Under the pieces are notes generated by a model. It saw only the letters and a program-made list of their open reading frames with translations, was not told the DNA's origin and made no database searches. Below, piece by piece: positions 691-62,723 of a DNA stretch of 62,723 nt (position 1 is its first letter; the number at the start of each line of letters is the position of its first letter). The position numbers and the translations under genes are program-made. Origin of the DNA: Gemmatimonadota bacterium (GTDB taxonomy: Bacteria > Gemmatimonadota > Gemmatimonadetes > Longimicrobiales > Gaopeijiaceae). The stretch is taken from contig VYAQ01000279.1 in the NCBI GenBank assembly GCA_009844885.1, forward strand, positions 1 through 62,723, read 5' to 3'.

Positions 691-714
691 GGCTGCGACT
701 GACCCGCCGCCCTC

Positions 715-2568: not shown

Positions 2569-2712
2569 CGATGTCTCGCTTTCGACGGATCCTTGGGGAG
2601 GAAGAGCGGCGCTGGCCGCCACGGCGACCACACCGCGCAAACTCGGCCACCCCGTGACGGCGGGCAATGGATGGCCGCGCTGTCCGCCCCTGCTACATTT
2701 CCCGGCGCAATC

Positions 2713-4257: not shown

Positions 4258-4264
4258 CCCGCCC

Positions 4265-6247: not shown

Positions 6248-6254
6248 CGGGTTC

Positions 6255-6293
6255 TTGCTTTCCTGTACTTACGAAAATATTATTTTACGTAAG
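6255..6293 (+). promoter_or_regulatory. Promoter with overlapping palindromic operator of AbrB/PIN module
   Basis: TTGCTT (6255-6260) and TATTAT (6278-6283) are separated by 17 bp. The -10 box sits in the centre of an inverted repeat CTTACG (6268-6273)/CGTAAG (6288-6293) with a 14-nt AT-only spacer. The leader to the antitoxin ATG at 6317 would be about 27 nt with a GGAG ribosome site. Operator-over-promoter placement fits autorepression by an AbrB-like antitoxin. Confidence 0.65.
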
Positions 6294-6316
6294 GATTGTT
6301 TATAGGACGGAGACCC

Positions 6317-6559
6317 ATGCTGATCAGGATCACATCGAAGCGCCAGGTTACGTTCCCCGCCCGCGTGTTGGAGGCGATGGGCGTGCAGCCCGGTGACCGT
6401 CTCGAGTTGGAGGAAGGTCCCGACGGCTTCGTCGTTCGCCCGCACCGAATCGACCTCTCCCGCCTGGCGCCGCTACGCCGCAAATTGCGACCCGGATACG
6501 AGGCGTTCGATATCCATTCCTTCCGTGCGCAGCCCCGTGATCCGACGCTACGGGATTGA
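6317..6559 (+). CDS. AbrB/MazE-type antitoxin
   Basis: 80 residues. The first 45 form a swapped-hairpin AbrB DNA-binding domain (MLIRITSKRQVTFPARVLE, then GVQPGDRLELEE). The tail is basic and then short. The ATG at 6317 has GGACGGAG just upstream; an in-frame start at 6296 would place the promoter palindrome immediately before it and leave no ribosome site, so 6317 is preferred. The last 23 nt overlap the PIN toxin gene. Expected roles are toxin neutralisation and repression of the operon through the palindrome at 6268-6293. Confidence 0.85.
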   Translation: MLIRITSKRQVTFPARVLEAMGVQPGDRLELEEGPDGFVVRPHRIDLSRLAPLRRKLRPGYEAFDIHSFRAQPRDPTLRD

Positions 6560-6941
6560 CACGTCCGTACTGGTGCGCCTGCTGACCGGCGTCCCCGAGG
6601 CTGACTTCGCGAGGTCCGTGCAGTCACTGTCCGTCCTCGTGAGGGATGAAGGCGCCGGCGTGTTCGCGTCGAACCAGGTGATCGGCGAGGCATATGTAGC
6701 GGTCCAGCACCACTATGGCGTGACCAGGGCGGACGCCCGCGCGGGGCTGCTGCATGTGCTCCGCAGCGGTCTCGTCGCTCCCTTGAACGGAAGGAGCGTC
6801 CTGGACGCGCTAGGGAGCTCCGGCGGTGCCGGCTTGCTGGATCGCCTCATCGCCGACGACTACATACGTGAAGATCTGGATGTCCTCACGCTGGACCGGG
6901 CGATGGCCAAGCTTCCGCGCGCCCGGATTCTGCAGTTGTGA
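6537..6941 (+). CDS. PIN-domain ribonuclease toxin
   Basis: 134 residues from a GTG start (VIRRYGIDTSVLVRLLTG). Asp8 is the first PIN acidic residue. The later conserved Asp positions fall in GLLDRLIADDY and in LTLDRAMAKL near the C terminus. The gene starts inside the antitoxin gene and ends in a GTGA overlap with a third gene. No ATG lies close to the N-terminal strand, so the GTG was chosen. Activity as an RNase is known for the family; the target RNA is not predictable. Confidence 0.8.
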   Translation: MIRRYGIDTSVLVRLLTGVPEADFARSVQSLSVLVRDEGAGVFASNQVIGEAYVAVQHHYGVTRADARAGLLHVLRSGLVAPLNGRSVLDALGSSGGAGLLDRLIADDYIREDLDVLTLDRAMAKLPRARILQL

Positions 6942-7693
6942 GTCGATTGCTGGTCCCGGAGACCACCCGGACCATAGTGCGCGTTCGCGAGGCCCGACGG
7001 GCGTATCGCGAGTTTCACGCCCAGTGCTTCTGGTCCTACCGGAGGGACTTGGAAATCGGCCTCACCGACGTGGACTGGGTCGCCGAGACGCTGAAGAAGA
7101 ACGGAGATATGAGGGCCTGGAGGATGGCGGGACGACTCATTGGCACCAGTGATCCGACGGCGTGCCTCAATTGGGCTCACGACTCGGCCTGGCGCTTCAT
7201 GCCTCTGGTGCGAGACGAAATGGGCGGCCAGGTGCTGCACGAGGTGGATTTGGCGATCAACAAGGTGCTGACGCTCGCGGGTCGCGACGAGGCACGTGAC
7301 TTCGTGGACATTCTCCACGCGCACGAGCATGTCCTGCCCCTTGGCGCAATGGTCTGGGCGGCCGTCGGCAAGGATCCCGGCTTCACACCGGCTTCGCTGC
7401 TCGAACAGCTGAAGCGCCGGGGCCGTCACCAACCCGAGGAGATCGCCCGGCTGGCCCTCGCCCGGCCCTTCGACCTCGTCCAAGCAAGGACCGTTTGGCA
7501 GGCGGCACTATCGGATGCGGACGAATTCATCCGCGGAAGGCCCCAAGAAGAGGTCGGGTGCCTGTACCACGCGCCGAGACGCGGTCACTTCGCGACGCCG
7601 TCGCCGGGGCTCTCCCTGCAGGAACAGGGTCTGGTGCCCCATTTCGGTCAGCCGGGAGGGATCCTGCCGAGGGTCGCCGACGGACCGGCTTGA
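6938..7693 (+). CDS. Third gene of the AbrB/PIN operon, probable chimera with an AbiEii-like C-terminal part
   Basis: 251 residues; the GTG start at 6938 overlaps the PIN stop codon. Residues 1-70 (YREFHAQCFWSYRRDLEI, then DVDWVAETLKKNG) resemble a small conserved bacterial protein of unknown function. Residues 75-230 (DSAWRF, then DLAINKVLTLAGRDEARDFVDI, then EVGCLYHAP) resemble the C-terminal half of AbiEii-like nucleotidyltransferase proteins. The catalytic GS and DxD motifs that should precede that half are absent. My reading is that a deletion joined two neighbouring genes, giving a catalytically dead product. The family resemblances are from memory, so confidence is limited. The gene itself is well supported by coupling and codon use. 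Confidence 0.5.
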   Translation: MSRLLVPETTRTIVRVREARRAYREFHAQCFWSYRRDLEIGLTDVDWVAETLKKNGDMRAWRMAGRLIGTSDPTACLNWAHDSAWRFMPLVRDEMGGQVLHEVDLAINKVLTLAGRDEARDFVDILHAHEHVLPLGAMVWAAVGKDPGFTPASLLEQLKRRGRHQPEEIARLALARPFDLVQARTVWQAALSDADEFIRGRPQEEVGCLYHAPRRGHFATPSPGLSLQEQGLVPHFGQPGGILPRVADGPA

Positions 7694-47598: not shown

Positions 47599-47693
47599 GG
47601 GCGCAACCTAGAATGACGCCGGCCCGCACGGCAATCCGCGCGGACCGTCCAACGGCACCTTCCCCTCCGCAGGCCGGATGGCAGGCCGCACCC

Positions 47694-50600
47694 ATGTCCC
47701 GCAACGCGACGCGACCCATGTTCGACCACCTCACCCGCACGACGCTCGCCGCCCTCATCCCCGCCGCCGCGCTTGCCGCGCTCGCCGCCACCCCGCAGGG
47801 CGCGAACGCCCAGGCCGCGCAGCCCGACATCGCCCTCATCACCCAGGCCACCGGGGGGCTCGCGCTTCGCGGAATCGGCCCGGCGCTGATGGGCGGACGC
47901 ATCGCGGACATCGCGGTCCACCCCGGCGACCCCACGACCTGGTACATCGCGGTCGGCTCCGGTGGCGTCTGGAAGACCACGAATTCCGGCATCACGTGGA
48001 CGCCCGTCTTCGACGACCAGCCGTCGTACTCGATCGGGGCAGTGGCGATCGATCCGTCCGATCCGGACATTGTCTGGGCCGGCACCGGCGAAAACGTCAG
48101 CGGGCGGCACGTGGCCTGGGGCGACGGGGTCTACAGGAGCCGCGACGCCGGACGCACCTGGACGCACGCCGGACTGGCCGCCTCCGAACACATCGGCAAG
48201 ATCCTGGTCGATCCGCGCGACGGGCACACCGTATTCGTGGCAGCTGAGGGTCCGCTCTGGTCAGCCGGGGGCGAGCGCGGCCTCTACCGGACCGAGGACG
48301 GCGGCGAGACTTGGGACGCGGTGCTGACCGTCGACGAGAACACGGGCGTGACCGACATCGAGTTCGATCCCGTCGACCCGGACATCATGTACGCGGCCAC
48401 CTACGAGCGCCGCCGCACAGTCTGGTCGCTGCTCGCCGGCGGCCCGGGCTCGGGCATCCACAAGTCGACCGATGGCGGCCGCACATGGCGTGAGGTCACG
48501 GCGGGACTGCCCAATGGCCACATGGGCAAGATCGGCATCGACGTGTCGGGCGCGGACCGCGACATCGTGTACGCCACCATCGAGGGCGGACCCAACGACC
48601 GCGGCTTCTACCGCTCCACCGACCGGGGCGAGAGCTGGGAACGCCGCAATTCCTACATCTCGGGCGGCACCGGGCCGCACTACTACCAGGAGATCGAGGC
48701 GTCGCCTCACGACCCCGATCTCGTCTACCAGATGGACGTCTTCATCCACGTCACCCGCGACGGCGGCGCCACCTTCACCGAACTCGGGACCGGACGCGAG
48801 AAGCACAGCGACAACCACGCGCTGTGGATCGATCCCGCCAACGGCCGCCACATGCTGGCCGGCACCGACGCGGGCCTCTACGAGACCTTCGACGAGGGCA
48901 CGACCTGGCGGCACTTCCCCAACACGCCGATCTCGCAGTTCTACAAGCTCGCGCTCGACAACGCCGAACCCTTCTACAACATCCTCGGCGGCGCGCAGGA
49001 CCTGGGCACGCTGCACGGCCCCTCGCGCACGATGAACCTGGAGGGCGTGCGCAACCACGACTGGTACGCTCCCCTGGGCGCCGACGGGTACGCAGCCGCC
49101 TTCGACCCGACCGATCCAGCCATTGCCTATATCCAGTCGCAGCAAGGCAATCTTCAGCGAGTCAACCTGCACAACCACGAACTCATCAACATCCGTCCGC
49201 TGCCGGCCCCCGGCGACCCGCCCGAGCGCTGGAACTGGGACAGCCCCGTTGTTGCGAGCCCCCACGCGGAGGGCCGGATCTACTACGCGTCCCAGCGCGT
49301 GTGGCGGAGCGACGACCGCGGCAGCTCGTGGACCGCGGTGAGCGGCGACCTGACCCGCGACGACAACCGCTACGAGCTGCCGGTGGCCGGACGCGTCCGC
49401 AGCGTGAACGCGCTGTGGGGCAACACCGCAATGTCTTGGTACTCAACGATTTCGGCCATCTCCGAGTCGCCGCTCGACGAAGGCGTCATCATCGCCGGCA
49501 CCGACGACGGGCTGGTCCAGGTGACCGAGGACGGGGGCGCGAACTGGCGCCGGACCGCCCCGCTGCCGGGCCTCCCGGAGCGCGCCTTCATGAACGACGT
49601 CAAGGCGTCCCAACACGACCGCGCATCGTTTTTTGTTGCGCCGGACAACCACAAGGAGGGCGACTACACCCCCTACCTCTTCGCGACCAATGACGCCGGC
49701 CGCACCTGGCGCTCGATCGCCGGCGACCTGCCCGATGGCGTCATCATCTGGTCGGTCGAGCAAGACCACGTGCGTCCCGATCTGCTATTCCTTGGCGCCG
49801 AGAACGGCATCTATTTGACGCTCAACGGCGGCACCAACTGGATCAAGCTGGGCACGGGCGCACCCACGATCTCGTTCCGCGATCTGGAGATCCAGCGCCG
49901 CGACAATGATCTGGTGGGAGCAACCTTCGGCCGTGGCTTCTACGTCCTCGACGACTACGCGCCCCTGAGGGATATGGCCGACGGTGCGCTTGCCGCAGGA
50001 GCGGTCCTGTTCCCCGTGCGGGACGCCTGGTGGTACGTCCCCAACACCCCGCTGCAGGCACCGGGTCAGCCGACCCTCGGCACGACCTCGTTCGTCGCGC
50101 CCAATCCGGACTTCGGCGCCACGTTCACCTACTGGCTCGCCGACCCGCCCGGGACCGCCCGCATGGAGCGGCGCGATGCGGAGCGCGCGGCCGCCGCACG
50201 CGGCGAGGACATCCCCTTCCCCGGCTACGACGCGCTGCGGGCCGAGGCGCTTGAGAGCGGGCCGCGCGTGGCAATGGTCGTACGGGACGCGGACGGAGCC
50301 CCCGTGCGGCGCGTCATGGGCCCTGCGACCGAGGGCCTCCACCGCGTCACCTGGGACCTGCGCCGCCCCGCACCCGACCTCGTCAACCTCGCGACGCCGG
50401 GCTTCACGCCGCCGTGGGCGGGCACGCCGCGCGGCCCCTTGGCGCCCCCGGGCGAGTACACGGTCGAGATGGCGCTGATCACCGAGGCCGGCGTCGAGCG
50501 GGTCGGCGATCCGCAGCCGTTCACCGTGAAGCCCGTCCCCAACATCGACGCGGCGACCGACTTCGCAGCCGCGATGGCCTTCGCGGAGGAGACCGCCGAC

Positions 50601-51023
50601 CTGCAGCGCCGCGCCCGGGGCGCCGCCGCCGAGATCGGCCGCGCGCGCGACCGGCTCCGCCACATGCGCGCCGCCCTGGACGAGACCCCCGCCGCCGGCG
50701 ACGACCTCTACACGCGCCTGGAAGCGATCGAGACCCGGCTCGCCGGCATCGCGGTGCGGCTACAGGGCGATCCCGCCCGCGGCGCCCTCAACGAGCCAAG
50801 CGCGCCCTCGATCATGGGCCGCATCGGCCAGGTCGCCGGGGGGCACTGGGGCACGCGCCAGCCGCCCACCCAAACCCAGCGCGAGAGCCTCGAGATCGCG
50901 CGGGGCGGCTTCCAGAGGGTGTCGATCGCGCTCGGGACGCTCCTGGAGGAAACGCTGGCCGAACTGGAGGCCGACATGGAAGCGGCGGGCGCGCCGTGGA
51001 CGCCGGGGCGCAGGGTGGGGTAG
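47694..51023 (+). CDS. Asp-box (VPS10/BNR-type) secreted beta-propeller protein, copy 2
   Basis: 1109 residues. A signal peptide ends GANAQA; an ATG at 47718 is an alternative start. Asp boxes include TTNSGITW, SRDAGRTW, TEDGGETW, STDGGRTW, STDRGESW and TNDAGRTW. A proline-glycine-rich C-terminal part (TPPWAGTPRGPLAPPGEYTVEM) precedes an acidic helical tail (LAELEADMEAAGAPW). The order of blocks parallels the protein at 39271-42426, so the two are duplicates. No catalytic assignment is possible. The family may bind peptides or glycans at the surface. Confidence 0.85.
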   Translation: MSRNATRPMFDHLTRTTLAALIPAAALAALAATPQGANAQAAQPDIALITQATGGLALRGIGPALMGGRIADIAVHPGDPTTWYIAVGSGGVWKTTNSGITWTPVFDDQPSYSIGAVAIDPSDPDIVWAGTGENVSGRHVAWGDGVYRSRDAGRTWTHAGLAASEHIGKILVDPRDGHTVFVAAEGPLWSAGGERGLYRTEDGGETWDAVLTVDENTGVTDIEFDPVDPDIMYAATYERRRTVWSLLAGGPGSGIHKSTDGGRTWREVTAGLPNGHMGKIGIDVSGADRDIVYATIEGGPNDRGFYRSTDRGESWERRNSYISGGTGPHYYQEIEASPHDPDLVYQMDVFIHVTRDGGATFTELGTGREKHSDNHALWIDPANGRHMLAGTDAGLYETFDEGTTWRHFPNTPISQFYKLALDNAEPFYNILGGAQDLGTLHGPSRTMNLEGVRNHDWYAPLGADGYAAAFDPTDPAIAYIQSQQGNLQRVNLHNHELINIRPLPAPGDPPERWNWDSPVVASPHAEGRIYYASQRVWRSDDRGSSWTAVSGDLTRDDNRYELPVAGRVRSVNALWGNTAMSWYSTISAISESPLDEGVIIAGTDDGLVQVTEDGGANWRRTAPLPGLPERAFMNDVKASQHDRASFFVAPDNHKEGDYTPYLFATNDAGRTWRSIAGDLPDGVIIWSVEQDHVRPDLLFLGAENGIYLTLNGGTNWIKLGTGAPTISFRDLEIQRRDNDLVGATFGRGFYVLDDYAPLRDMADGALAAGAVLFPVRDAWWYVPNTPLQAPGQPTLGTTSFVAPNPDFGATFTYWLADPPGTARMERRDAERAAAARGEDIPFPGYDALRAEALESGPRVAMVVRDADGAPVRRVMGPATEGLHRVTWDLRRPAPDLVNLATPGFTPPWAGTPRGPLAPPGEYTVEMALITEAGVERVGDPQPFTVKPVPNIDAATDFAAAMAFAEETADLQRRARGAAAEIGRARDRLRHMRAALDETPAAGDDLYTRLEAIETRLAGIAVRLQGDPARGALNEPSAPSIMGRIGQVAGGHWGTRQPPTQTQRESLEIARGGFQRVSIALGTLLEETLAELEADMEAAGAPWTPGRRVG

Positions 51024-52399: not shown

Positions 52400-52996
52400 C
52401 TAGCCCCCCGCCATCCGCGCCTCGCACTCCTCCACGCCCGCCGTGACCCCGGCCACCCGGTAAAGCCGAGCCGCCTCGCCCCAGACCCCCACGGCCGCCT
52501 CCACATCCCCGCGATCCTCCAGGAGCATGGCCATGGGGCGGAGCGCGTTGGCGTGGTCCAGCGGCGAGCCGCCGTCCGCCTTCTCATACAGATCGAGCGC
52601 TTCGCGGTAGCACGCTTCGGCCTGGTCCCATCGCCCCTGCCGGTGGTGAACCTGCCCCAGATGCCGCACGGCGTGCGCCACCCGCAGCGGGTCGCCGACC
52701 GCCGTCGCGGCCGCGACCGCGTCTTCGAGCAGCGACCGGGCCTTGTCCGTCCGGCCGCGGTCCAGCGCGACGTGCGCGAGCTTGCCCAACGCGATGGACA
52801 GTTCACGCCTCGCGCCGATCTGCTCGCAGATGTCGCACGCCCGGAGCAAGTCGGCCTCGACACACGCCGCGATGGCCTCAACGCGCGCCGCGACCGCCTC
52901 CGCGCCAGCCGCGTCGGCGGGCGCCGACTGCAGCGCCTCCCCCCACGTGCGCCACGCCTTCTCGATGAGCGCCCGAGCTTCCGTCCGCGTTGCCAT
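52400..52996 (-). CDS. TPR protein, cytoplasmic
   Basis: 198 residues without signal peptide. Helical repeats include LGKLAHVALDRGRTDKARSL, LEDAVAAATAVGDPLRVAHA, VRHLGQVHHRQGRWDQAEAC and MLLEDRGDVEAAVGVW, which are tetratricopeptide helices. It starts 11 bp after the sarcosine/dimethylglycine-dehydrogenase-like gene and should be co-transcribed with it. It may be a scaffold for the oxidoreductase or a separate chaperone; that is not determinable. A long open frame of the same phase upstream is antisense-like to the dehydrogenase and is not coding. Confidence 0.75.
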   Translation of the reverse strand: MATRTEARALIEKAWRTWGEALQSAPADAAGAEAVAARVEAIAACVEADLLRACDICEQIGARRELSIALGKLAHVALDRGRTDKARSLLEDAVAAATAVGDPLRVAHAVRHLGQVHHRQGRWDQAEACYREALDLYEKADGGSPLDHANALRPMAMLLEDRGDVEAAVGVWGEAARLYRVAGVTAGVEECEARMAGG

Positions 52997-53007
52997 CCCT
53001 GTCCCTC

Positions 53008-55539
53008 CTATGTCTTCATTCTGCTGCCACCCGGGTCGAACAGCCCCGCACCCACCGCCGCCACCGTGACCGGGAAACACTCGTTCATGTACACCACCTG
53101 CAGCCGCTCGCCGACCTGGGCGATTTCGGCCGGCAGCCAGGCCATCAGCAGGTATTTCCCCACGGATGGCCCCGTCCCGGCCGAGGTCACGCGGGACTCC
53201 CGGCCCAGCGCGTCCACGATACGGTCCCCTCCCGGCGTGAGGATGGGCTCGTTGCCGCCCGTCGGGAAGCGCGCCATGCCGGACGCATCCACGTGATCGT
53301 CCATGGTGAGCGTGCACATCCGCGCCGCCGGACCCCGCTCGCGCGCCCTCAGGTACGCGGCCTTGCCGATGAAGTCCGCCCGCTTCACATGGCGCCGCGC
53401 CAGCCCCGCCTCGAACGGTGAGTACTCGGAAGTAAGCTCGGCGCCCATGAGCAGGTAGCCCTTCTCCATGCGTGCGGTGGTGCCGTACACACCGACGCCG
53501 ACGGGCCGCGCGTCGAGCTCCCGGCCGGCGCCCAGGATCGCGTCCCAGAGCGCGAGGCCGTGCTCGGCGCGCGCGTAGATCTCCCACCCGCTCTCGCCGA
53601 CGTAGGAGATGCGCAGCAGGGTCGCGGGGACCCCGCCGACGAGCGCCTTCCGCACCGTGCCGTAGGGGAACGCCTCCTGGCTCAGGCCGCAGTCCGCGAC
53701 TCTCGAGACCAGGGCCCGCGCGTCCGGTCCCCATACCCCGAGCGTGGTTATCGCCGACGACCGGTCCTCGAAGTGTACCGAGCCGTCCAGCGGCAGATGT
53801 TTGCGGAACCAGAAGGCATCCCGCGCGCCGTCGAACACACCGGTGACGATGCGAAACCGTTCGTCCGCCAGCCTCTGGATGGTCAGATCGGCGCGGAAGC
53901 CCCCGTCCGGTGTCAGGAGCGGCGTGTAGATCGAGCTTTCGACCGGGCGGTCGCACGCGTTGACCGTCATGCGCTCCAGGTACGGGAGCGCGCCGGGCCC
54001 GGAGACGTCGAAGATCTGGAACGCGCCCAGATCGACCACGCCGACCCTCTCGCGCAGGTGCAGGTGTTCCGCGTTGATGATCGGCGACCACCAGCGCCGG
54101 TCCCACTCGTGCGGGCGGTCCGGGACGTTGTAGTGCTCGACCAGGTCCTCGTTGGTGGTGTACCATTGCGGCCGCTCCCATCCCCGCGCTTCGAAGTACT
54201 CGGCCCCCAGTGCCTCGGTCCGGGGGTGGAACGGCGACCGGTTGACCCCGCGCGCGGATTCCCACTGCTCGCGCGGATGCACGATCCCGTACGTCTTGGG
54301 GAAGTGCTCACGGCAGCGCGCGCGGACGTGGCGGCCGGTGCGCTCATGGGGCTGGAAGCGGGTGACATCCGACTCGTGCGGGTCCAGGAGGCGCGGGTAG
54401 CCGTGGGTCATCCACTCGGCGATCAGGCGTGCCGAGCCGGGGCCCTCGCGCACCCACACGGCCGCCGCCGACCAGAGGTTCGCCACCTCGGCGGTCTCGC
54501 CCAGCAGCTGCTGCGTGTCGGGCGTGAGCGAGAGCAGGCCGTTGATGGCGTACTGGATCTCGGTGCCGGCCAGGAGTTCGCCCATGATCTCGTGCGCGTG
54601 CTCGAGTTGCGGGGCGAAGTCCCCGGGCGTGAAGGGCAATTCGGTCGGGGAACGCTCCGCCGCGGCGATGGAGGGAATCTCCCCGGGCCGGATCAGGATG
54701 GGGCGATGCGCGTAGGACCCCACTTCCATGGCTCCGTCGCTCTGCCTTTCATACATGAACGAATCCATGTCGCGCACAATGGGGTAGCCGATCTCGTTGC
54801 CGGTTTCCAGCAGAAGTTCGACCGGTCCGAAGTCGGCCATCTGGTGCACCGCAGGGGTGAGCGGAATCGTGGCACCGGCCATCGCGGCAATGCGCGGACT
54901 CCAGACGCCGCAGGCAATGGCCACATGGGCCACCTCGATGGTCCCGCGGGTCGTGACCACCGTCCGGATGCGGGGGCGGCCGGAGGGCACGGGGTCGACT
55001 TCAAGGCCGGTCACCTCGGTCTCGTCCAGCACCGTGAGCACACCCCGGGCCAGCGCCCGCTCGCGCATGATCGTGCCCGCCTTCACCGAGTCGACGACCG
55101 ACACGCTCGGGGTATGGAAGCCGCCGAGGATCACGTCCGGGTTCACGAACGGGACTTTTGCGACGACTTCAGCGGGCGTCAGCAACTCGCTCTCGATGCC
55201 CCACACGCGCGCCGAGGTCATGCGCCGGCGCAGCTCCTCCATGCGTTCTTCGGTGCGCGCGACCTCGATTCCGCCGCACGTCGTGTTCACGCCGAGCGCT
55301 TCGTACTGGCACTGGCTCTCGAGCGTGATCAGCGCGATTTCGCGTCCGTGATCGACGGGGAAGATGAAGTTGGACGCGTGGCCGGTGGAGCCGCCCGGGT
55401 TGGGGAGCGGACCCTTGTCGATCAGCACCAGATCGTCCCAGCCGAGCCTCGCCAGGTGCTCGACCAAGCAGTTGCCGACGATGCCGGCGCCGATGACGGC
55501 GACTTTGGCTTGCGGTGGCGCGGCGCGGCGGTCACTCAT
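53008..55539 (-). CDS. Dimethylglycine/sarcosine dehydrogenase-type flavoprotein with GcvT domain
   Basis: 843 residues. Residues 1-400 are an FAD-dependent DAO fold with VIGAGIVGNCLVEHL and GGSTGHASNF, where His54 matches the histidine that carries covalent flavin in dimethylglycine dehydrogenase. Residues about 430-840 are a GcvT-like tetrahydrofolate domain with YESYVGESGWEIY-type and LLMAWLPAEIAQVG segments. The enzyme should oxidise an N-methyl group and pass the formaldehyde to tetrahydrofolate. The substrate is probably dimethylglycine or sarcosine. It overlaps the HD-oxygenase gene by 8 nt. Membership of the family is firm; the exact N-methyl substrate is not. Confidence 0.88.
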   Translation of the reverse strand: MSDRRAAPPQAKVAVIGAGIVGNCLVEHLARLGWDDLVLIDKGPLPNPGGSTGHASNFIFPVDHGREIALITLESQCQYEALGVNTTCGGIEVARTEERMEELRRRMTSARVWGIESELLTPAEVVAKVPFVNPDVILGGFHTPSVSVVDSVKAGTIMRERALARGVLTVLDETEVTGLEVDPVPSGRPRIRTVVTTRGTIEVAHVAIACGVWSPRIAAMAGATIPLTPAVHQMADFGPVELLLETGNEIGYPIVRDMDSFMYERQSDGAMEVGSYAHRPILIRPGEIPSIAAAERSPTELPFTPGDFAPQLEHAHEIMGELLAGTEIQYAINGLLSLTPDTQQLLGETAEVANLWSAAAVWVREGPGSARLIAEWMTHGYPRLLDPHESDVTRFQPHERTGRHVRARCREHFPKTYGIVHPREQWESARGVNRSPFHPRTEALGAEYFEARGWERPQWYTTNEDLVEHYNVPDRPHEWDRRWWSPIINAEHLHLRERVGVVDLGAFQIFDVSGPGALPYLERMTVNACDRPVESSIYTPLLTPDGGFRADLTIQRLADERFRIVTGVFDGARDAFWFRKHLPLDGSVHFEDRSSAITTLGVWGPDARALVSRVADCGLSQEAFPYGTVRKALVGGVPATLLRISYVGESGWEIYARAEHGLALWDAILGAGRELDARPVGVGVYGTTARMEKGYLLMGAELTSEYSPFEAGLARRHVKRADFIGKAAYLRARERGPAARMCTLTMDDHVDASGMARFPTGGNEPILTPGGDRIVDALGRESRVTSAGTGPSVGKYLLMAWLPAEIAQVGERLQVVYMNECFPVTVAAVGAGLFDPGGSRMKT

Positions 55540-56113
55540 GCGCGAATGGTTCGCGTGCGAAGATCCGGCGCACCATCGGCTCGAAGAACTCCAGCGGCAG
55601 CGTGTCGTAGTCGGGGTCGAACGCGCACTGATCCCAGCGGTGACAGAAGTCTACGGCGTCCTGGTACCAGGGGTGGTCGCGGAACCTGTCGCGCGCGTGA
55701 CGGTCGCCGCCGACGTGATGCGCGTAGTAGAAGAACTGGAACAGCCCGTGGTGGCGGACGATCCAGTACGTGCGCTCGCTCACGTAGGGACGCAGCAGCA
55801 GGGCGGCCAGCTCCCCATGGCTGTGCGGCGCCAGAAGATCGTCGATGTCGTGGAGGAGCGCCGCCACCACCATCTCCTCGTCCGCGCCGTCGCGGTACGC
55901 CAGGGTGGCCGACTGCAGGGAATGCTCGAGCCGGTCTATCTGATAGCCGCCCACCGAACCCGACAGTTCACGGAGGTGCGCCAGCACGCGGTCGCCGGTG
56001 CCTGCCGCGAACTCGTCCTCGAGGCGCGCAAGCAGCTGGTAGTCCTCGCGGGTGCCGTCCGCCATGTGAATGAAGCTCACCTTCGGACCATTCGGCTGAT
56101 TCATGTCGTCCAT
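55532..56113 (-). CDS. HD-domain di-iron oxygenase of PhnZ/TmpB type
   Basis: 193 residues. LEHSLQSATLAYRDGADEE and ALLHDIDDLL follow the PhnZ pattern. His64, His88, Asp89, His97 or His99, His121 or His122 and Asp161 (HRWDQ) fill all six di-iron ligand positions of PhnZ/TmpB, which cleave the C-P bond of 1-hydroxy-2-aminoethylphosphonates with O2. TmpB gives glycine betaine and phosphate from the trimethylammonium analogue. It is divergent from a TmpA-like oxygenase gene, as expected for the pair. Other MIOX-like substrates remain possible since no phosphonate transporter is in the window. Start at 56113; MDDMNQPN precedes the domain. Confidence 0.72.
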   Translation of the reverse strand: MDDMNQPNGPKVSFIHMADGTREDYQLLARLEDEFAAGTGDRVLAHLRELSGSVGGYQIDRLEHSLQSATLAYRDGADEEMVVAALLHDIDDLLAPHSHGELAALLLRPYVSERTYWIVRHHGLFQFFYYAHHVGGDRHARDRFRDHPWYQDAVDFCHRWDQCAFDPDYDTLPLEFFEPMVRRIFAREPFAHE

Positions 56114-56186
56114 GCCTGTCCACTCTCTCGATGAGGGCTTTCCATGAGGGCTCTCCGCTGGGAGCGTGCGCGCGAGCGAAAGGCCA

Positions 56187-56211
56187 TGTCAAGGGACGCC
56201 GGCGCTTGACA
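56187..56211. promoter_or_regulatory. Shared operator between divergent TmpB-like and TmpA-like genes
   Basis: TGTCAAG (56187-56193) and CTTGACA (56205-56211) form a perfect 7-bp inverted repeat with 11-bp spacer. The right arm contains TTGACA of a candidate promoter for the plus-strand gene (-10 TCTGAT at 56230-56235, 18-bp spacing), whose ATG follows 5 nt later. One regulator bound here could control both genes. No regulator gene lies beside them. Confidence 0.55.
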
Positions 56212-56240
56212 CCCGCGGGAAGGGCGCACTCTGATAGAGC

Positions 56241-57356
56241 ATGCATCACTCGATCCGCAGCCTCACCCCGAGCCCCGATGCCTTGACGGCAGTCTGGAGC
56301 AGCGGCGAACAGACCGAACTGCCCTACCTCTGGCTGCGCGACAACTGCGGGTGCAGCGACTGCCGCGTCGTGCAGACTTCCGAGAAGCGGTTCCACCTTT
56401 TCCGGGTGCCCGGTGACCTGCGGCCGCAGCAGATCGGCATCGAAAACGCCGGATCCGGGGACGAGGCGATCGCGATCTCGTGGCCGGACGGGCACCGCAC
56501 ACGCTACCGGTCGAGCGAGATCCACGGCCTGCTGAGCCTGCCCCCCTTCGAACTGCAGTACTGGGACGGCGGGTTCCAGCCGCGGCGGTTCGACTACCGG
56601 CGGTTCCTGGCAAGCGACCGCGCGGCGGCGGAGCTGATCGAGGAGTTTCTGCGGACGGGTGTCTGCGTGCTCGTCGATGCGCCCACCGATCCGGAGTCAT
56701 CGGAGCAGCTCACGGCCCGCCTGGGGCCGATTCGCGAAGTGCTGTTCGAGCGCATCCACAACGTCAAGCTCGATCCGAAGGGCTACAACATCGCGCACAC
56801 CGGTCTGGCGGTCGCGCCGCACAACGATTTCACGAGTTACAGCTGGCCGCCGAACGTGCAGGCGCTGCACATGCTGGTGAACGAGTGCGAGGGCGGCGAG
56901 TCCGTCGTCGTGGACGGCTTCGGCTTGCTCGACGAGCTCCGGGAAGACGATCCCGACAAGTTCGACGTGCTGTGCAGCGTCCCGGTACCGTTCCGCATCT
57001 TCAGCGCCCAGCACGAGTGTTACGCGGTCAAGCCGATGATCGAGCTGGACCGCGAGGGCGAGATCACGATGGTGCGCTTCAACACCGCGCAGATGCAGGC
57101 CCTTCCCCTCGCGGAGCCGCGCCTCGCCGAGTTCTACCCCGCCTATCACGAGCTGTCCAGGCGCGTCAATGCGCCGGGCGCCCAGGTCACGTTCCGGCTG
57201 GAGGGCGGACAGATTCTGCTGTGCGCCGGCCACCGGGTGCTGCACGGCCGCACGGCGCTGCGCTCGACCGCGCCGCGCCACCTGCAGGACGCCTACTTCG
57301 AGCACGACAACGTGCGCAATCACCTCAGGTGGCTGCGTCTCAGCGGCCGGGTCTGA
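56241..57356 (+). CDS. TmpA/gamma-butyrobetaine-hydroxylase-type 2-oxoglutarate oxygenase
   Basis: 371 residues. An N-terminal zinc domain has Cys36, Cys38, Cys41 and His85 (NCGCSDC, then PDGHRTRY), and the jelly-roll oxygenase has Fe ligands His194, Asp196 (PHNDF) and His335 (VLHGR). This layout is that of gamma-butyrobetaine hydroxylase and of TmpA, which was earlier misnamed as such and hydroxylates 2-(trimethylammonio)ethylphosphonate. The TmpB-like gene across the divergent promoter supports TmpA. A carnitine-type role is the alternative, since the two cannot be told apart by these motifs alone. The ATG at 56241 fits a leaderless transcript. Confidence 0.75.
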   Translation: MHHSIRSLTPSPDALTAVWSSGEQTELPYLWLRDNCGCSDCRVVQTSEKRFHLFRVPGDLRPQQIGIENAGSGDEAIAISWPDGHRTRYRSSEIHGLLSLPPFELQYWDGGFQPRRFDYRRFLASDRAAAELIEEFLRTGVCVLVDAPTDPESSEQLTARLGPIREVLFERIHNVKLDPKGYNIAHTGLAVAPHNDFTSYSWPPNVQALHMLVNECEGGESVVVDGFGLLDELREDDPDKFDVLCSVPVPFRIFSAQHECYAVKPMIELDREGEITMVRFNTAQMQALPLAEPRLAEFYPAYHELSRRVNAPGAQVTFRLEGGQILLCAGHRVLHGRTALRSTAPRHLQDAYFEHDNVRNHLRWLRLSGRV

Positions 57357-57411
57357 GGCTACTCGGAAGATCACTCTGAGGGTGTAGCTTCAGAGCAGCT
57401 TCAGAGTAGCC
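57357..57411. terminator. Nested hairpin between convergent genes
   Basis: An 8-bp outer stem GGCTACTC (57357-57364)/GAGTAGCC (57404-57411) encloses an inner stem CTCTGA (57374-57379)/TCAGAG (57390-57395). It occupies most of the 79 bp between the convergent TmpA-like and GcvT-like genes and may stop transcription from both sides. No T-run follows, so Rho help or another role is possible. Confidence 0.5.
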
Positions 57412-57435
57412 GGTCGCCTGTGGCGAGCGAGCCCC

Positions 57436-58740
57436 TCAGAGCGTCGCGTCGAGTCCCTGGGCCGCCGCCACCTCGCGGGCGCTGGGATTCACGGAGGGGC
57501 GGAAGGGGACCTCGCACACCCGCGCAGCGTCCGGCCGGCCCGGCTCGCTGGCGTATTCGTCGGGCAGCCACACCGTGAGTTCCGTGCCGACGGCCGCCTT
57601 GCCGGCGGGTATGTACCCGAGCGCGATGTTGCAGCCCAGTTCGGGGGCGTGCCACGGCGAGGTGAGATAGCCGATGGGGTCGCCGCCGTCCGCGTCCGAC
57701 ACGAGCCAGAAGTCCGGGGCGTAGTCGTCGATGGGCTTGCCGTCCAGCGTCATCCCCACCATGACCATCGCGAACGGACAGCGTCCGGCGTCGAGCTCGG
57801 CGCGCTGGCGCTCCAGCACGGCCCGCCCGATGTAGTCTCCCTGCTTCTCGCGCGGCACCTGGTAGCCCAGGTTGCACTGGAACGGACTCGTCTCGTGGTC
57901 GATGTCCTGTCCCCAGGAAAGGATTCCGGCCTGGATCCGGCGCTGGTGTCCCGGAGCGATGACCATCAGGCGGTGCGCCTCCCCGGCCGCGAGCACCGCG
58001 CGCCACAGCTTCTCGGCGTGCAGCGTGGCGTCGCGAAGATAGATCTCGTACCCCTTTTCGCCCGAGAATCCGGACTGGGACACCACCACCGAACAGCCGG
58101 CGATCTCCGCCTCCATGAGCCCGTAGTAAGGGATTCGCCGGACGCCTTCACCCACCAGGTCGGCCATGAAGTCGAGCGACTTCGGGCCTTGGATCTGCAG
58201 CGGACAGACGTCGATTTCGTCGATCTCCACCTCCATCCCGAGCCCGACGTTGACGCCCTGTAGCCAGAAAAGAAGGTCGGAGTCGGCCAGAGAGAACCAG
58301 AACTCGTCCCCGGCAAGCCGCAGCAGCACCGGGTCGTTGAGAATGCCGCCCTTCTCGTTGCAGCAGATGACGTATTTCCCGTGCATCGGCTCGATCCGGG
58401 TCGCGTCCCGGGTGATCACGTAGTCGGTGAACCGTTCCGCGTCCGGTCCCCGGACCCGGATCTGACGCTCCACCGCGACATTCCACACCGTGACGTCCCG
58501 CGTCAGCGCCTCGTGCTCGGCCGCTGCGCCGCCGTCCTCGGGCCGCACGTAGCCGCGTGGGTGGTAGATGCGGTTGTACACCGTGGCCCGCCAGCAGCCC
58601 GCCTCGTGCGACAGGTGCCAGTAGGGAGACTTGCGGACCCTGGTCGAAATGAGCATCTCGACCGGCGTGCGGCCGCTCTGGCGCAGGTTGATCGGCACGA
58701 TCCTGTCGGACTGGTCCACGCTGGTCGGTTGCTGGATCAT
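57436..58740 (-). CDS. GcvT-family methyltransferase (aminomethyltransferase/DmdA-like)
   Basis: 434 residues, longer than GcvT (about 365). Blocks CPLQIQGPKSLDFMADLVGE, SQSGFSGEKGYEIYL and YIGRAVLERQRAEL mark the tetrahydrofolate-binding GcvT fold, followed by the C-terminal barrel. Related enzymes demethylate glycine-system aminomethyl groups, dimethylsulfoniopropionate (DmdA) or other methylated amines. No GcvP, GcvH or GcvL genes are nearby, so it is not the glycine-cleavage T protein of a local operon. In this setting it could take the first methyl from glycine betaine. That step is otherwise missing in the cluster, and this is inference. Confidence 0.8.
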   Translation of the reverse strand: MIQQPTSVDQSDRIVPINLRQSGRTPVEMLISTRVRKSPYWHLSHEAGCWRATVYNRIYHPRGYVRPEDGGAAAEHEALTRDVTVWNVAVERQIRVRGPDAERFTDYVITRDATRIEPMHGKYVICCNEKGGILNDPVLLRLAGDEFWFSLADSDLLFWLQGVNVGLGMEVEIDEIDVCPLQIQGPKSLDFMADLVGEGVRRIPYYGLMEAEIAGCSVVVSQSGFSGEKGYEIYLRDATLHAEKLWRAVLAAGEAHRLMVIAPGHQRRIQAGILSWGQDIDHETSPFQCNLGYQVPREKQGDYIGRAVLERQRAELDAGRCPFAMVMVGMTLDGKPIDDYAPDFWLVSDADGGDPIGYLTSPWHAPELGCNIALGYIPAGKAAVGTELTVWLPDEYASEPGRPDAARVCEVPFRPSVNPSAREVAAAQGLDATL

Positions 58741-58952
58741 CGCCGGGGGTTCTCCAGTTGGGTGATTCGAGTTGACGGCGTCGGCGGCACGACGGCCGGG
58801 GCCGGTTCAGCATGTCGGTTGGAACGCAGGGGAGCAAGGCGGTTCGATGCGGGCCGATCGGGTTCGCGGATGCTCTGTGATGGGACTATCGTAGGGCCAC
58901 AGCCAAGCGCCCCGGCCTATGCAGTTCCAAAGCACCCACGGAGAATCGCCCC

Positions 58953-61568
58953 ATGAATGGGGACCTCAGCCTGTTTCGCACCCTTTGTACCCGCGCCGCG
59001 CTTCTGTCGCTGCTGACCGCTGCGCCGGCGGCCGCCCAGTCCGGAGGAACCATCCGGGGCACGGTCGTGGACGTGTTCGACAACGCCCTGCCCGGTGTCC
59101 GGGTGACGGCGACCGGTCCCGGCCTGGACGCGGAGACCGTCACGGATGCGGCCGGAGCCTACGAGTTCACCGGCGTGGCCCCGGGCGACTACATCCTGAC
59201 CGCCAGCCTGCTCGGCTATTCGGCGCGCGAGGTTCGGGTCACCGTCAGCGCGGCCGGAGCCGTCGAGACCGTCCCGATCGTACTGCAACCCGTCTTCCAG
59301 CTCGACCCGATCAGCGTGGTAGCGGAAGAGCCAGCGGTCTTCGCGCGCAACTTCGTCGCGGAGCCGATGATGAGGCAGCAGTCGAGCATCACGGCAGTGA
59401 CGTCGGTGATCGACAACCTGCCCGGCGTCTCGGTTCAGGAGGGGGACGCGTATGCGTTCGACGACTGGTCGAGCAACGTGGTCATGCGCGGGTTCCAGTC
59501 GACCATCAACGACGTGCAGATCGGCACGACCATCGACGGATTCCCCAACGGTACGTCGGACTACTGGAGCGGCGCGAAGGCGAACCGGTTCGTCGATCCG
59601 ATCAACCTTGGCGGCGTCGAGGTGTCGCAGGGGACTGCCGACATCGCCTCGCGCTCGGTCGAGGCGCTGGGCGGGACGCTCAACTTCCTGACGGCCGACC
59701 CGGCCGAGGAAGCAGGCCGGACGGCCTCCGTCACGATCGGCGAGAACGAGGGCCAGCGGTTCGCCGCGCGGGTCGAGACGGGGTCGCTATTCGGCGGCAC
59801 GACGCGAGCCTGGGTCGCCGCGATCCGCCAGGAGGCGACCGACTGGATGGAGGGCTCGGCGAGGAACGAGCGGGAGCACTTCGCCGCCAAGATTGTGTCT
59901 TCACACGGTGCCCTCGACCTGACCGGCTACCTCTCCTACGACGACATCCACGAGGACGTCTACCAGCGGCTCTACAGCGACGCGGACTTCCGCGCCGATC
60001 CGCGCTGGGACCGCCTGATCGGCCACTGGCCGGGCGTGCCCTACCTGAACCAGTTCTACCGGCCCGGGTGGCAGACGCGGCGCAAGAACACGCTCACCTA
60101 TGTCAAGGCCGACTGGACCGTAAGCGAACTGGTTTCCCTCAGCGCGGGCGTGTACCGCCATCGCAACTGGGGACGGGGCGACTGGCTGCCCCCGTACATC
60201 GTCGATGTGGTGGACGACGGAGGCGGACCCGAGTCGGAGCTGGCGGGCAACCCGCCAGTGCGGGGCGGCACCCAGCTCGGCGTGATCCGGTTCGTGGACA
60301 GCAACGGCGCGGCCGTTGGCCCGGTGCCGGGGTGCACTTCGTCCTACATCTTCAACTACTACGGGTCGGGCGGCCCGGAAGTCGATCCGGCGTGCCACCC
60401 GGGGGCCAGCGCGGTGCAGTCGTACCGCCACAGCCACTACGGGAAGAACCGTCTCGGCGCAAACATCGACGGGGAGTGGTCCGCGCTGTTCGGCGCGGGA
60501 CGGGGCAGCGTGCTGCGCGCCGGCATCTGGTACGAGGATTCCAAGCGGGATCTCGGGCGCGACTGGCACCGCATTCTGGACCCTGCGATCAATTTCAAGT
60601 GGGACTATCAGGCCTACTGGCACCAGTACGAGTGGGAATTCCCGCAGAGCGTCTTCAAGTGGTACGCCGAGGAGACGCTGTACTTCGGTTCGTTCGAGTT
60701 GACCGCGGGCGTCAAGCAGTACCTCATCTCCGTGTCGCGCGAGGATGAGTTCGGGGTCGACCGGCCCCTTGACGTCGATTCCGACTCGGACCTGCTCCTC
60801 TCCGGCGGCGTCACCTGGGAGACGCCGGTCGAGGGTCTCGACGTGTTCGTGGGCTACGCCGAGAACTTCCGCGCAATCGGCAGCAACCTGCTCGAGGTGC
60901 CGGGCCGCAGCCTTGACCGCCTCGAGCCCGAGACCGCGTCCAACGTCGATGTCGGCGTCCAGTACGCCGGCGAGAGGGTCGCCCTGAGCGCCACCCTGTA
61001 TTCCATCGACTTCAACAACCGGATCTTCTACCTCGGCCCACAAACGCCCGCAGGCCCCAACTACCTCATCCCCGGAGGGGGGGCTTACTTCAACGCGGGC
61101 GGCATCGAGACCAGCGGTATCGAGTTGGCCACCACCGTGGCGTTGTCGGGTCGGACATCCCTCTACACCGCCCTCACGCTCAACGACTCGAAGTATGCCG
61201 GGACCGACGATCCGCTCGTCGACGCCAGCCAGGGGATCGTGCCCGGCACCGACGTGGCTGGCGTGCCGCCCCGGCTGTGGGTCGTCTCCCTCGATCGCGA
61301 CGGGCCCCTGGGCGGCGGCTTGTCCGCGAAGTACACGGCAGCGCGCCGCGTCAGTCTGACTGCGGACTGGTACACCGACGCCTACTGGACGCTGGACGCC
61401 TACGTCAGCTTCAAGGGCGAGGCACTGGGCGACCTGTTCCGGTCGACGGAGTTCTCGATCGTCGCGAACAACCTGCGCGACACCCCCTACCTGTCCGCGA
61501 TCACCGAAAACGCTGCCTGGCTCGGCGCGCCCCGAACGATATCCATGACCACGACCATCTCGTTCTGA
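58953..61568 (+). CDS. TonB-dependent receptor with carboxypeptidase-like N domain
   Basis: 871 residues. A signal peptide (to about 28) precedes a carboxypeptidase-regulatory-like domain (GTIRGTVVDVFDNALPGVRV, to about 115). The plug has DNLPGVSVQEGDAY and GGVEVSQGTADIA, and the C-terminal barrel ends with the terminal aromatic ISF. It should import a substrate across the outer membrane by energy from TonB-ExbBD, which is not in this window. It lies between the oxygenase cluster and a BCCT transporter, so a quaternary ammonium compound is a possible ligand. The frame is unbroken and of normal length. Confidence 0.93.
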   Translation: MNGDLSLFRTLCTRAALLSLLTAAPAAAQSGGTIRGTVVDVFDNALPGVRVTATGPGLDAETVTDAAGAYEFTGVAPGDYILTASLLGYSAREVRVTVSAAGAVETVPIVLQPVFQLDPISVVAEEPAVFARNFVAEPMMRQQSSITAVTSVIDNLPGVSVQEGDAYAFDDWSSNVVMRGFQSTINDVQIGTTIDGFPNGTSDYWSGAKANRFVDPINLGGVEVSQGTADIASRSVEALGGTLNFLTADPAEEAGRTASVTIGENEGQRFAARVETGSLFGGTTRAWVAAIRQEATDWMEGSARNEREHFAAKIVSSHGALDLTGYLSYDDIHEDVYQRLYSDADFRADPRWDRLIGHWPGVPYLNQFYRPGWQTRRKNTLTYVKADWTVSELVSLSAGVYRHRNWGRGDWLPPYIVDVVDDGGGPESELAGNPPVRGGTQLGVIRFVDSNGAAVGPVPGCTSSYIFNYYGSGGPEVDPACHPGASAVQSYRHSHYGKNRLGANIDGEWSALFGAGRGSVLRAGIWYEDSKRDLGRDWHRILDPAINFKWDYQAYWHQYEWEFPQSVFKWYAEETLYFGSFELTAGVKQYLISVSREDEFGVDRPLDVDSDSDLLLSGGVTWETPVEGLDVFVGYAENFRAIGSNLLEVPGRSLDRLEPETASNVDVGVQYAGERVALSATLYSIDFNNRIFYLGPQTPAGPNYLIPGGGAYFNAGGIETSGIELATTVALSGRTSLYTALTLNDSKYAGTDDPLVDASQGIVPGTDVAGVPPRLWVVSLDRDGPLGGGLSAKYTAARRVSLTADWYTDAYWTLDAYVSFKGEALGDLFRSTEFSIVANNLRDTPYLSAITENAAWLGAPRTISMTTTISF

Positions 61569-61635
61569 GGCTGGTGGGCGCAGCGTGGGCAGAGTGCGTG
61601 TGCCGGTGTCGTAGCGGACGGCCCGGCCGCCAGCC

Positions 61636-62723
61636 ATGAGGAACGGGCCGCACCGGCGAACCACGGCGGATGCCGGGCCGTGGAAGGGGCTGAATCCCGC
61701 CATGGCGCTGGCCGCCAAGGGCGTCGTCCTGGCCTTCGTGCTCGCCACCGTCCGGGACGTGGACGCCGCGGGCGCCGTCTTCGGCCACGTCCGCGCCTGG
61801 ATCGAAGGCACCCTCGACTGGTTCTACATCCTGACCGTCGCCGCCGCCGTGATCACCTGCGTGTTCCTGGCGTGCAGCCGGTTCGGCAGGATCCGGCTCG
61901 GCGACGACGCTTCGGCGCCCGAGTTCAAGACGTCCTCGTGGATCGCCATGCTGTTCTCGGCCGGCATCGGGATCGGAATGCTGTTCTTCTCCATCTCCGA
62001 ACCCCTCTTCCATTTCGACAACCTCCAGTCTGCGGGCTACCCCAACAACCCGAGCGCCGATCTGGCGGGTGCGGTGCTGCTGGACGAGCAGCGCGCCGTG
62101 CACGCCATGCGCGTCACGTACTTTCACTGGGGCATACACGGTTGGTCCGTCTACGTCGTGGTCGGGCTGTGCCTGGCCTACTTCGGGTTTCGCCGGAAGC
62201 TGCCGCTGACGCTGCGGTCCGCCCTGTACCCGCTCATCGGCGAGCGCATCTACGGTCCCATCGGTGACCTCGTGGACCTGCTGGCGGTGTTCGGCGGGGT
62301 CTTCGGCATCGCGACTTCTCTGGGGCTCGGGGCAAGCCAGATGGCCACCGGGCTCGATGTGCTGTTCGGCGTTGAACCGGGTGTCTTCACGCAGGTCGCG
62401 CTCATCGCCGCCATCTCGCTGGCGGCCACCCTGTCGGCGGTGTCGGGCGTGAGCCGCGGCATCCGCGTCCTGTCCGAATGGAACATCCGCCTCAGTCTTG
62501 TCCTCCTGGGGTGCTTCCTGCTGCTGGGCCCGTTCAGCTGGCTCGCCGGATTCGTCGCGTCCTCGTTCGGCGAATACGTGTGGCGCCTGGTGCCCATGTC
62601 CTTCTGGATCGCCGACGATCCTGGGGACGCTGCCTGGCAAAACAGCTGGACGATCTTCTACTGGGGATGGTGGATCTCCTGGGCGCCCTTCGTCGGCACG
62701 TTCATCGCCCGCATCTCCCGCGG
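61636..62723 (+). CDS. BCCT-family betaine/choline/carnitine transporter, 3' end cut by window edge
   Basis: At least 362 residues, open to the right edge. Membrane helices include [17 protein letters not shown] and [18 protein letters not shown]. The signature [19 protein letters not shown] and [21 protein letters not shown] mark the glycine-rich and tryptophan motifs of BetT/OpuD-type carriers. These take up glycine betaine, choline or carnitine with sodium or protons. It starts 67 bp after the TonB receptor on the same strand. The start at 61636 gives a short cytoplasmic leader ([14 protein letters not shown]); the ATG at 61699 begins directly at the first helix and is the alternative. Confidence 0.92.
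   Translation, partial: [362 protein letters not shown]

Follow-up and report, generated by a model that had tools for sequence, protein, structure and literature searches.

A clade of PhnZ-like HD-domain proteins, distinct from TmpB, is co-inherited with a BBOX-fold oxygenase and putative folate-linked demethylation genes in Gemmatimonadota

Three HD-domain oxygenases, MIOX, PhnZ and TmpB, are listed in the available portion of a 2020 review (PMC8177086). The PhnY/PhnZ and TmpA/TmpB pairs cleave C-P bonds, TmpA/TmpB converting 2-(trimethylammonio)ethylphosphonate to glycine betaine and phosphate. Here we describe a related pair of genes in a 62,723-nucleotide stretch of DNA (the window), which is the whole of contig G000:C285 within the 4.9-Mb genome of a Gemmatimonadota bacterium that has sponge-dwelling relatives. 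As in the TmpA/TmpB system, the gene for an Fe/2-oxoglutarate (2OG) hydroxylase adjoins that for a predicted PhnZ-fold di-iron HD protein with six metal ligands, and the pair is tied to betaine-type demethylation genes. The two window proteins nevertheless belong to other clades: the HD protein is without the YxxE, AKRY and R..D...K motifs, the 2OG protein has a zinc site, a His-substituted cage and no TmpA Arg, and the island is without phosphonate genes. The four genes on which the comparison turns are:

53008..55539, minus strand: fusion of an FAD oxidase with GcvT, dimethylglycine-oxidase-like (the flavoprotein; domains DAO, FAO_M, GCV_T and GCV_T_C)
55532..56113, minus strand: HD-domain protein of PhnZ/TmpB fold, probable di-iron oxygenase with an altered pocket (from ligands, fold search and clade)
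56241..57356, plus strand: BBOX-fold Fe/2-oxoglutarate oxygenase with a zinc site and a His-substituted cation cage (domains TauD and GBBH-like_N)
57436..58740, minus strand: stand-alone GcvT-fold methyltransferase of the DmdA family, without the Trp for dimethylsulfoniopropionate (DMSP) (from PRK12486, PDB match and residues)

The HD protein carries all six PhnZ/TmpB ligand positions, as the first-pass annotation of this DNA had proposed: His64, His88, Asp89, His99, His122 and Asp161. Two of these had been left ambiguous, and the alternatives, His97 and His121, show no conservation. All 44/44 aligned rows share the six ligands; they comprise 35 members of the window clade (35/35) and nine TmpB/PhnZ-type rows (9/9). 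Of the latter, five are TmpB sequences and four are further PhnZ-type HD proteins, among which three carry the annotation of phosphonate degradation HD-domain oxygenase. A sequence search of the PDB returned PhnZ and TmpB as the only credible matches, across 36-68 residues. An AlphaFold2 model of the protein (predicted local distance difference test score 91.4, predicted template-modelling score 0.86) was built from a 26-row alignment that omitted L120, L127, L089 and seven plasmid rows; when its fold was searched, the ten matches at E≤0.001 were seven PhnZ and three TmpB chains (template-modelling scores 0.62-0.70), with MIOX at rank 15. Alternatively, the HD protein could be a hydrolase, such as a nucleotide phosphatase, that is a mere neighbour of the pathway; the diphosphatase YqeK has an identical six-ligand motif, according to the review text at hand (PMC8177086). 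We consider a hydrolase improbable, however, as the fold matches at this threshold are solely oxygenases and the occurrence of the HD gene matches that of the 2OG gene across 59 genomes (see below).

While the ligands are kept, the surrounding pocket appears to be rebuilt. YxxE is the substrate loop, with Tyr30/Glu33 in TmpB and Tyr24/Glu27 in PhnZ, in the same portion of the review (PMC8177086). Its Glu (PhnZ Glu27) is present in 9/9 TmpB/PhnZ-type rows and is replaced by Tyr in 31 and by Phe in 4 of the 35 clade rows; its Tyr is found in 8/9 of the former and 0/35 of the latter, and the equivalents of the pair in the window protein are Val54 and Tyr57. The same split was seen at four further positions. 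The Lys of H..AKRY (Lys108) is Lys in 9/9 TmpB/PhnZ-type rows versus Gln in 35/35 clade rows, Arg158 is Arg in 9/9 versus 0/35, Lys165 is Lys in 9/9 versus Phe in 35/35, and His62 is His in 9/9 versus Asp in 35/35. We take these Lys, Arg and His positions to contact the phosphonate in TmpB and PhnZ. Thus the window protein shares the HD fold and ligands of the PhnY/PhnZ system but has Tyr and Gln at the Glu27 and Lys108 positions, and its partner is BBOX-fold. Because the pocket is rebuilt, the HD protein, probably a PhnZ-fold di-iron oxygenase on the evidence of residues and model, most likely acts on a substrate other than a phosphonate.

Profile scores and phylogeny agree with this separation. 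The HD protein scored 38.6 bits on the TmpB model NF049941 (cut-off 300) and 45.4 bits on the Phn-HD model (cut-off 214.6), compared with 351-352 bits on the TmpB model for the TmpB rows L141 and L142, and the TmpB model gave no match above cut-off in any of the 59 related genomes. In a tree of 44 rows, 35 of them from the clade and chosen from the 90 loci at hand, with long branches among the nine TmpB/PhnZ-type rows, the window clade and the TmpB/PhnZ-type set were split at support 100/99; a grouping of TmpB with the window HD clade was rejected by the approximately unbiased test (p = 8.5e-7). By sequence comparison, then, the HD protein represents a separate, widespread clade that is distinct from TmpB. 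Among the best 80 of 123 relatives, record titles name Gemmatimonadota, Chloroflexota, Acidobacteriota, Spirochaetota, Pseudomonadota and Actinomycetota, a rough assignment, since L063, L068, L074 and L075 are counted as Pseudomonadota yet fall in the window's own family. Members at 45-56% identity were also found in 15 plasmid records.

The first-pass annotation had called the neighbouring oxygenase TmpA-type, with intact zinc and iron sites. The metal sites and the divergent arrangement with the HD gene hold, but the zinc site is a BBOX trait. The 2OG protein keeps equivalents of the BBOX zinc ligands Cys38, Cys40, Cys43 and His82, which are absent from all four TmpA sequences compared, as well as equivalents of the iron ligands His202, Asp204 and His347; we assume for these residues the metal-ligand roles that they have in BBOX. 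Equivalents of BBOX Asn191 and Asn292 are also retained. The Arg that follows N-N in the four TmpA rows is Ala283 in the window protein; of nine window-type rows, five have Ala at this position and four have Gln. BBOX residues Tyr177, Trp181, Tyr194 and Tyr366, which we take to form the aromatic cage around the trimethylammonium group, correspond to Phe169, His173, His186 and Tyr352, and this F/H/H/Y set is identical in 9/9 window-type rows. In a 2OG tree that includes human BBOX as a long branch, the window-type proteins formed a 100/100 clade on a long stem and TmpA a distinct 100/100 clade. The sister group of TmpA (98/98) is a third, zinc-less set of 2OG proteins, which come from the culturable Halomonas beimenensis, from a bog gammaproteobacterium and from a Pseudomonas plasmid and whose genes are likewise paired with HD genes. 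From these residues and clades, we conclude that the 2OG partner is not TmpA.

These results bear directly on the phosphonate-to-betaine step that had been proposed for the island. The HD protein does have the fold and di-iron ligands of TmpB, and the 2OG protein scored 226.4 bits on the TmpA model NF049936. That score lies well under the cut-off of 400, however, and the TmpA rows L141 and L142 reached 577-582; the trees place both oxygenases, with high support, apart from the TmpA and TmpB clades, an outcome that the first-pass annotation had itself named as refuting its proposal, and the marker residues are replaced. PhnJ was found in 0/59 related genomes (its control was positive in E. coli), and among the 20 genomes that carry the HD-2OG pair a search for the phosphonate-binding protein matched just two (G019 and G020), both weakly. 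Since clades, residues and the missing phosphonate genes all point the same way, cleavage of 2-(trimethylammonio)ethylphosphonate is not supported; we rejected the phosphonate pathway and hold it to be extremely unlikely.

A second possibility is a gamma-butyrobetaine or carnitine route, a special case of the explanation we prefer below, in which the 2OG protein would make carnitine or its dimethyl analogue and the HD protein would cut C2-C3 to give an N-methylglycine. The 2OG protein resembles BBOX in fold and domain order, in the zinc Cys/His and iron ligands, in Tyr366 and in the two Asn equivalents, and carnitine has been detected in a sponge and proposed as symbiont food in the accessible text of two studies (PMC9999580, PMC5649159), a link that we keep as context only. 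It nevertheless differs from BBOX in having His for cage residues Trp181 and Tyr194, and its 226.0 bits on the BBOX model TIGR02409, a tie with its TmpA score, are about half of the cut-off of 414.75, which was not exceeded in any of the 59 related genomes. Moreover, both Gemmatimonadetes bins in the portion of PMC5649159 at hand were placed in group III and not in the carnitine group I. On this evidence, we view a carnitine route as rather unlikely.

Orthologues of the HD protein with 81-95% identity were found in many related genomes, and presence of the gene there is more than chance. The HD, 2OG and stand-alone GcvT genes were confined to the same 20 of 59 genomes, the remaining 39 having none of the three, using cut-offs of E<1e-60 for 2OG and at least 85% identity for GcvT orthologues; one of the 20 (G005) has an HD fragment only. 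Within the genus, 19 genomes have all three genes and four have none. The flavoprotein gene was present in 21/59 genomes, namely 19 of the 20 (G008 being the exception) together with G001 and G021, in which GcvT occurs only as a 43-44% paralogue. In a second set of 35 genomes, chosen from those with any HD match and searched for GcvT and the flavoprotein, the 17 HD-positive genomes included 16 with GcvT and 15 with the flavoprotein, versus both genes in two (G111 and G189) of the 18 HD-negative ones. Over all 94 genomes, GcvT was found in 36/37 HD-positive versus 2/57 HD-negative genomes; as the genomes are related, these counts do not represent independent events. The counts exclude weak, partial HD matches of about 34-47% identity, which belong to a different HD protein, and 2OG matches that fell short of E 1e-60. 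Also excluded were GcvT paralogues at 33-48% identity and flavoprotein matches of 32% and 34%.

The flavoprotein and GcvT genes are neighbours in many genomes that have the HD-2OG pair elsewhere, so their co-occurrence exceeds linkage. Two gene pairs are therefore inherited together, and the window is a case in which both are joined. Twenty loci were compared, comprising 18 distinct HD copies from other genomes, a second copy in G006 and a second copy in G000. HD and 2OG are adjacent in 18/20; near the HD gene are the flavoprotein gene in four loci, GcvT in six, TonB in four, BCCT in four and TPR in one (L034). The flanking genes that the first-pass annotation had counted in the layout are thus all present in the window, but TonB, BCCT and TPR were rejected as parts of a conserved core. 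At L042 (G018) a 61-residue 2OG remnant lies next to the HD gene and an intact 2OG gene about 23 kb away, and at L043 (G022) the HD gene is without an adjacent 2OG gene and an intact one is on another contig. Three HD copies were seen in one genome (G010:C58 and C42), of which two are interrupted by an internal stop. The source assembly itself contains a second copy of the island (L033, G000:C163, positions 159-7264), with 85% identity to the window for HD, 85% for 2OG, 95% for GcvT and 72-93% for TonB; this copy has a MetF-type gene, unlike that in the window, and may have arisen by duplication or come from a closely related strain within the bin, whose contamination is 4.89%.

The best PDB match of the flavoprotein was N,N-dimethylglycine oxidase (1pj5; 457.7 bits across about 830 residues). 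Its likeness to dimethylglycine (DMG) oxidase/dehydrogenase extends over the whole domain order (DAO-FAO_M-GCV_T) and includes His54, His232, Tyr263 and Asp551 at DMG-oxidase positions, although the protein is clearly diverged. His232 and Tyr263 are the equivalents of His225 and Tyr259, and the folate Asp is also kept; we take the former two to be catalytic and the Asp to bind folate in DMG oxidase.

For the stand-alone GcvT, the best PDB match was DmdA (3tfh), with which it has the NDPV..ADSD region in common, and DmdA Glu204 and Tyr206 are retained as Glu232 and Tyr234. This resemblance could mean that its substrate is DMSP or another sulfonium compound. However, Trp171 is a DMSP marker of DmdA in the available part of PMC7487153, and the corresponding residue (Trp197 in 3tfh numbering, by an offset that also fits Glu178 and Tyr180) is Phe225 in the window protein; in addition, the score on the DmdA model PRK12486 was 254.8 bits against a cut-off of 410, and the DMG-oxidase-like protein would be left without a role. 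DMSP demethylation was rejected on Trp171 and score, and we judge any sulfonium substrate very unlikely.

A MetF-type gene, that is, of the methylenetetrahydrofolate reductase (MTHFR) type, follows the 2OG gene on the same strand in 13/90 loci; one of 14 matches, a 48-residue fragment at L060, was discounted, and the contig end truncates that at L061. With the general Pfam model the L033 protein scored only 22 bits and with TIGR00676 27 bits, whereas its best PDB match reached 171 bits with 7xg9, which we take to be the MTHFR homologue of SYK-6. In SYK-6, an MTHFR homologue oxidises the 5-methyl-tetrahydrofolate (5-methyl-THF) produced by the GcvT-fold LigM (PMC12585457), and in SAR11 metF adjoins a DmdA-like gene whose substrate is unknown, according to the accessible part of PMC3160333. 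MetF beside 2OG, taken with these two parallels, argues that the stand-alone GcvT would produce 5-methyl-THF. It resembles DmdA and the LigM-MTHFR pair in its GcvT fold and in the MTHFR-type gene that accompanies it in sister loci, but it has Phe for DmdA Trp171 and is linked with genes for 2OG, HD and DMG-oxidase-like proteins.

Taken together, we modestly favour the view that these genes form a catabolic module, linked to THF, for a methylated amine other than a phosphonate, with steps catalysed by GcvT, MetF, the 2OG and HD proteins and the flavoprotein. This retains the uptake and THF-linked demethylation that had been assigned to the island from the flavoprotein, GcvT and BCCT genes, to which the MetF of sister copies is now added, and drops the phosphonate step. 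Gene content, residues, clades and co-inheritance are observed; the steps are all inferred from sequence and would run as follows. In the window copy, the TonB receptor and BCCT carrier would import the substrate. The stand-alone GcvT would move one N-methyl group to THF to give 5-methyl-THF, and the MetF-type enzyme encoded beside 2OG in sister copies would return this as 5,10-methylene-THF. The 2OG protein would hydroxylate the side chain, and the HD protein would use O2 to cleave a bond at the hydroxylated carbon, most likely a C-C bond, giving an N-methylated glycine; this chemistry is modelled on C-P cleavage by PhnY/PhnZ and TmpA/TmpB, with a different bond. Finally, the flavoprotein would demethylate DMG to sarcosine, and possibly on to glycine, with the carbon trapped on THF. 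Methyl transfer by GcvT may precede or follow the hydroxylation and cleavage, and if it comes first, the cage His would suit a protonated dimethylamine.

Among candidate substrates, we rate highest a carboxylate analogue of the TmpA substrate and a butyrobetaine-like compound, and a phosphonate lowest. In the first case, also a special case of the preferred explanation, the 2OG protein would hydroxylate the carbon next to a carboxylate and the HD protein would remove the carboxyl carbon to give glycine betaine, which GcvT would convert to DMG and the flavoprotein to sarcosine. An example would be beta-alanine betaine, which has a carboxylate where 2-(trimethylammonio)ethylphosphonate has the phosphonate. 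The order of chemistry would be that of TmpA/TmpB, the marker residues of TmpB/PhnZ-type proteins and of TmpA being gone, and the co-inheritance of GcvT suits a betaine product. The PhyH family alpha-hydroxylates carboxylic acids, and a PhyH-type oxygenase lies within 4 kb of HD-family genes in 3/90 loci. The cage His are odd for a trimethylammonium group, however; we regard this carboxylate chemistry as an unlikely but serious candidate.

Several observations weigh against the proposed methylated-amine module. The two cage His speak against a plain trimethylammonium substrate, and carnitine, taurine and creatine catabolism was enriched in seawater and not in sponge metagenome-assembled genomes (MAGs) in the portion of PMC8163846 at hand. 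The window copy is without a MetF gene. In the module's favour, GbcA was found at E≤1e-30 in 0/20 set-carrying genomes and MttB in 1/20 (G010), with a positive MttB control in Methanosarcina; but the GbcA negative is of unproven sensitivity, given that its control was above cut-off in 0/14 genomes, and BHMT was outside the search. Co-inheritance is incomplete: the flavoprotein gene is absent in G008, G094 and G099; GcvT is absent in G099; G111 and G189 have GcvT and the flavoprotein without HD; and G001 and G021 have the flavoprotein alone. In the wider family, 38/90 loci are without any searched hydroxylase type within 4 kb of the HD gene, and 18/18 Chloroflexota-titled loci have short-chain dehydrogenase/reductase (SDR) genes and no 2OG gene within that distance, so the HD protein is not always partnered by 2OG. 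The HD proteins of L129 and L130 are not sister to the window HD, and their 2OG proteins fall within the window clade.

Across the 90 loci, BBOX/TmpA-type 2OG genes lie within 4 kb of the HD gene in 44, GcvT in 13 and the flavoprotein in nine, counts that omit PhyH matches under 100 bits and GcvT matches under 200 bits. A rule that the HD gene always stands beside a hydroxylase was rejected, the searched types being within 4 kb in 52/90. The Chloroflexota-titled relatives L091-L111 (SAR202/Dehalococcoidia) have 72-78% identity to the HD protein, with luciferase-like genes in nine loci, and a class II aldolase/adducin gene lies within 4 kb in seven of the 90 (L112, L113, L118, L120, L121, L137 and L140). 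HD adjoins GcvT with no 2OG gene within 4 kb at L067 and L083 (titled Acidobacteria) and at L069. At L089 and L093 (titled Spirochaetia/Spirochaetaceae) 2OG, HD and GcvT occur together, L093 having the flavoprotein gene within 4 kb as well. In the gammaproteobacterial MAG loci L129 and L130, read by shared clusters and by Pfam, respectively, the run is RACo, 2OG, HD, FAD-GcvT, formaldehyde-activating enzyme, sarcosine-oxidase genes and a DJ-1/AraC regulator. These two runs, and the HD-GcvT neighbourhoods in the loci titled Acidobacteria and Spirochaetia/Spirochaetaceae, count in favour of the methylated-amine module. L133, on Pseudomonas aeruginosa plasmid pF045_1, runs LysR, TmpA-sister 2OG, HD, choline-binding protein, choline dehydrogenase and aldehyde dehydrogenase and is probably a plasmid-borne quaternary-amine catabolic cluster.

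If the module is as proposed, the hydroxylase-plus-HD strategy would extend beyond phosphonates, to an HD clade with the same di-iron ligands and other pocket residues that is co-inherited in Gemmatimonadota with a hydroxylase and folate demethylation genes. A further candidate for aerobic amine demethylation would thereby join GbcAB, Bhmt and the cobalamin-dependent Mtg system (PMC12478193, available portion). Names taken from the nearest characterised relatives (TmpB, TmpA and DmdA) are probably wrong for all three proteins. More tentatively, and less probably than not, the HD clade may be a further kind of PhnZ-fold di-iron oxygenase, found in at least six phyla by title, and may break a C-C bond in a hydroxylated N-methylated compound, not a phosphonate, supplied by its BBOX-fold partner; coupling to a DmdA-family demethylase, MetF and the DMG-oxidase-like flavoprotein would then make an oxygen- and folate-driven route towards glycine without a Rieske or corrinoid step. 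Judged by titles and abstract openings among the best matches listed, with most subscription papers outside the scope, no paper was found on this HD clade or gene set, in line with the earlier statement that no such layout was known.

The genes named in the first-pass annotation are all present at the positions it gave. The remaining features of the island are:

52400..52996, minus strand: TPR protein (Pfam TPR_12, ATG start), third gene of the HD transcription unit, outside the conserved core
56114..56240, no strand: 127-bp gap between the HD and 2OG open reading frames (ORFs), inferred divergent promoter region
58953..61568, plus strand: TonB-dependent outer-membrane receptor (Plug and TonB barrel)
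61636..62721, plus strand: BCCT transporter (PF02028, 403.7 bits), truncated by the contig end

The HD, flavoprotein and TPR genes are likely a single minus-strand transcription unit, divergent from 2OG; the flavoprotein ORF overlaps HD by 8 nt and is followed by an 11-nt gap before TPR. The stand-alone GcvT gene is oriented toward 2OG. Gene calls based on ORF conservation include some false frames in GC-rich DNA; the genes used in the argument were verified by Pfam, NCBIfam, phmmer or tblastn, those of L129 partly via shared clusters. Rfam and tRNA scans of the window gave no matches. At L034 the full-length BCCT gene encodes 541 residues. Upstream of the island, at 47613-51023 of the window, lies a long BNR/VPS10-like repeat protein (labelled by eye), which has a counterpart of 95% identity in L034.

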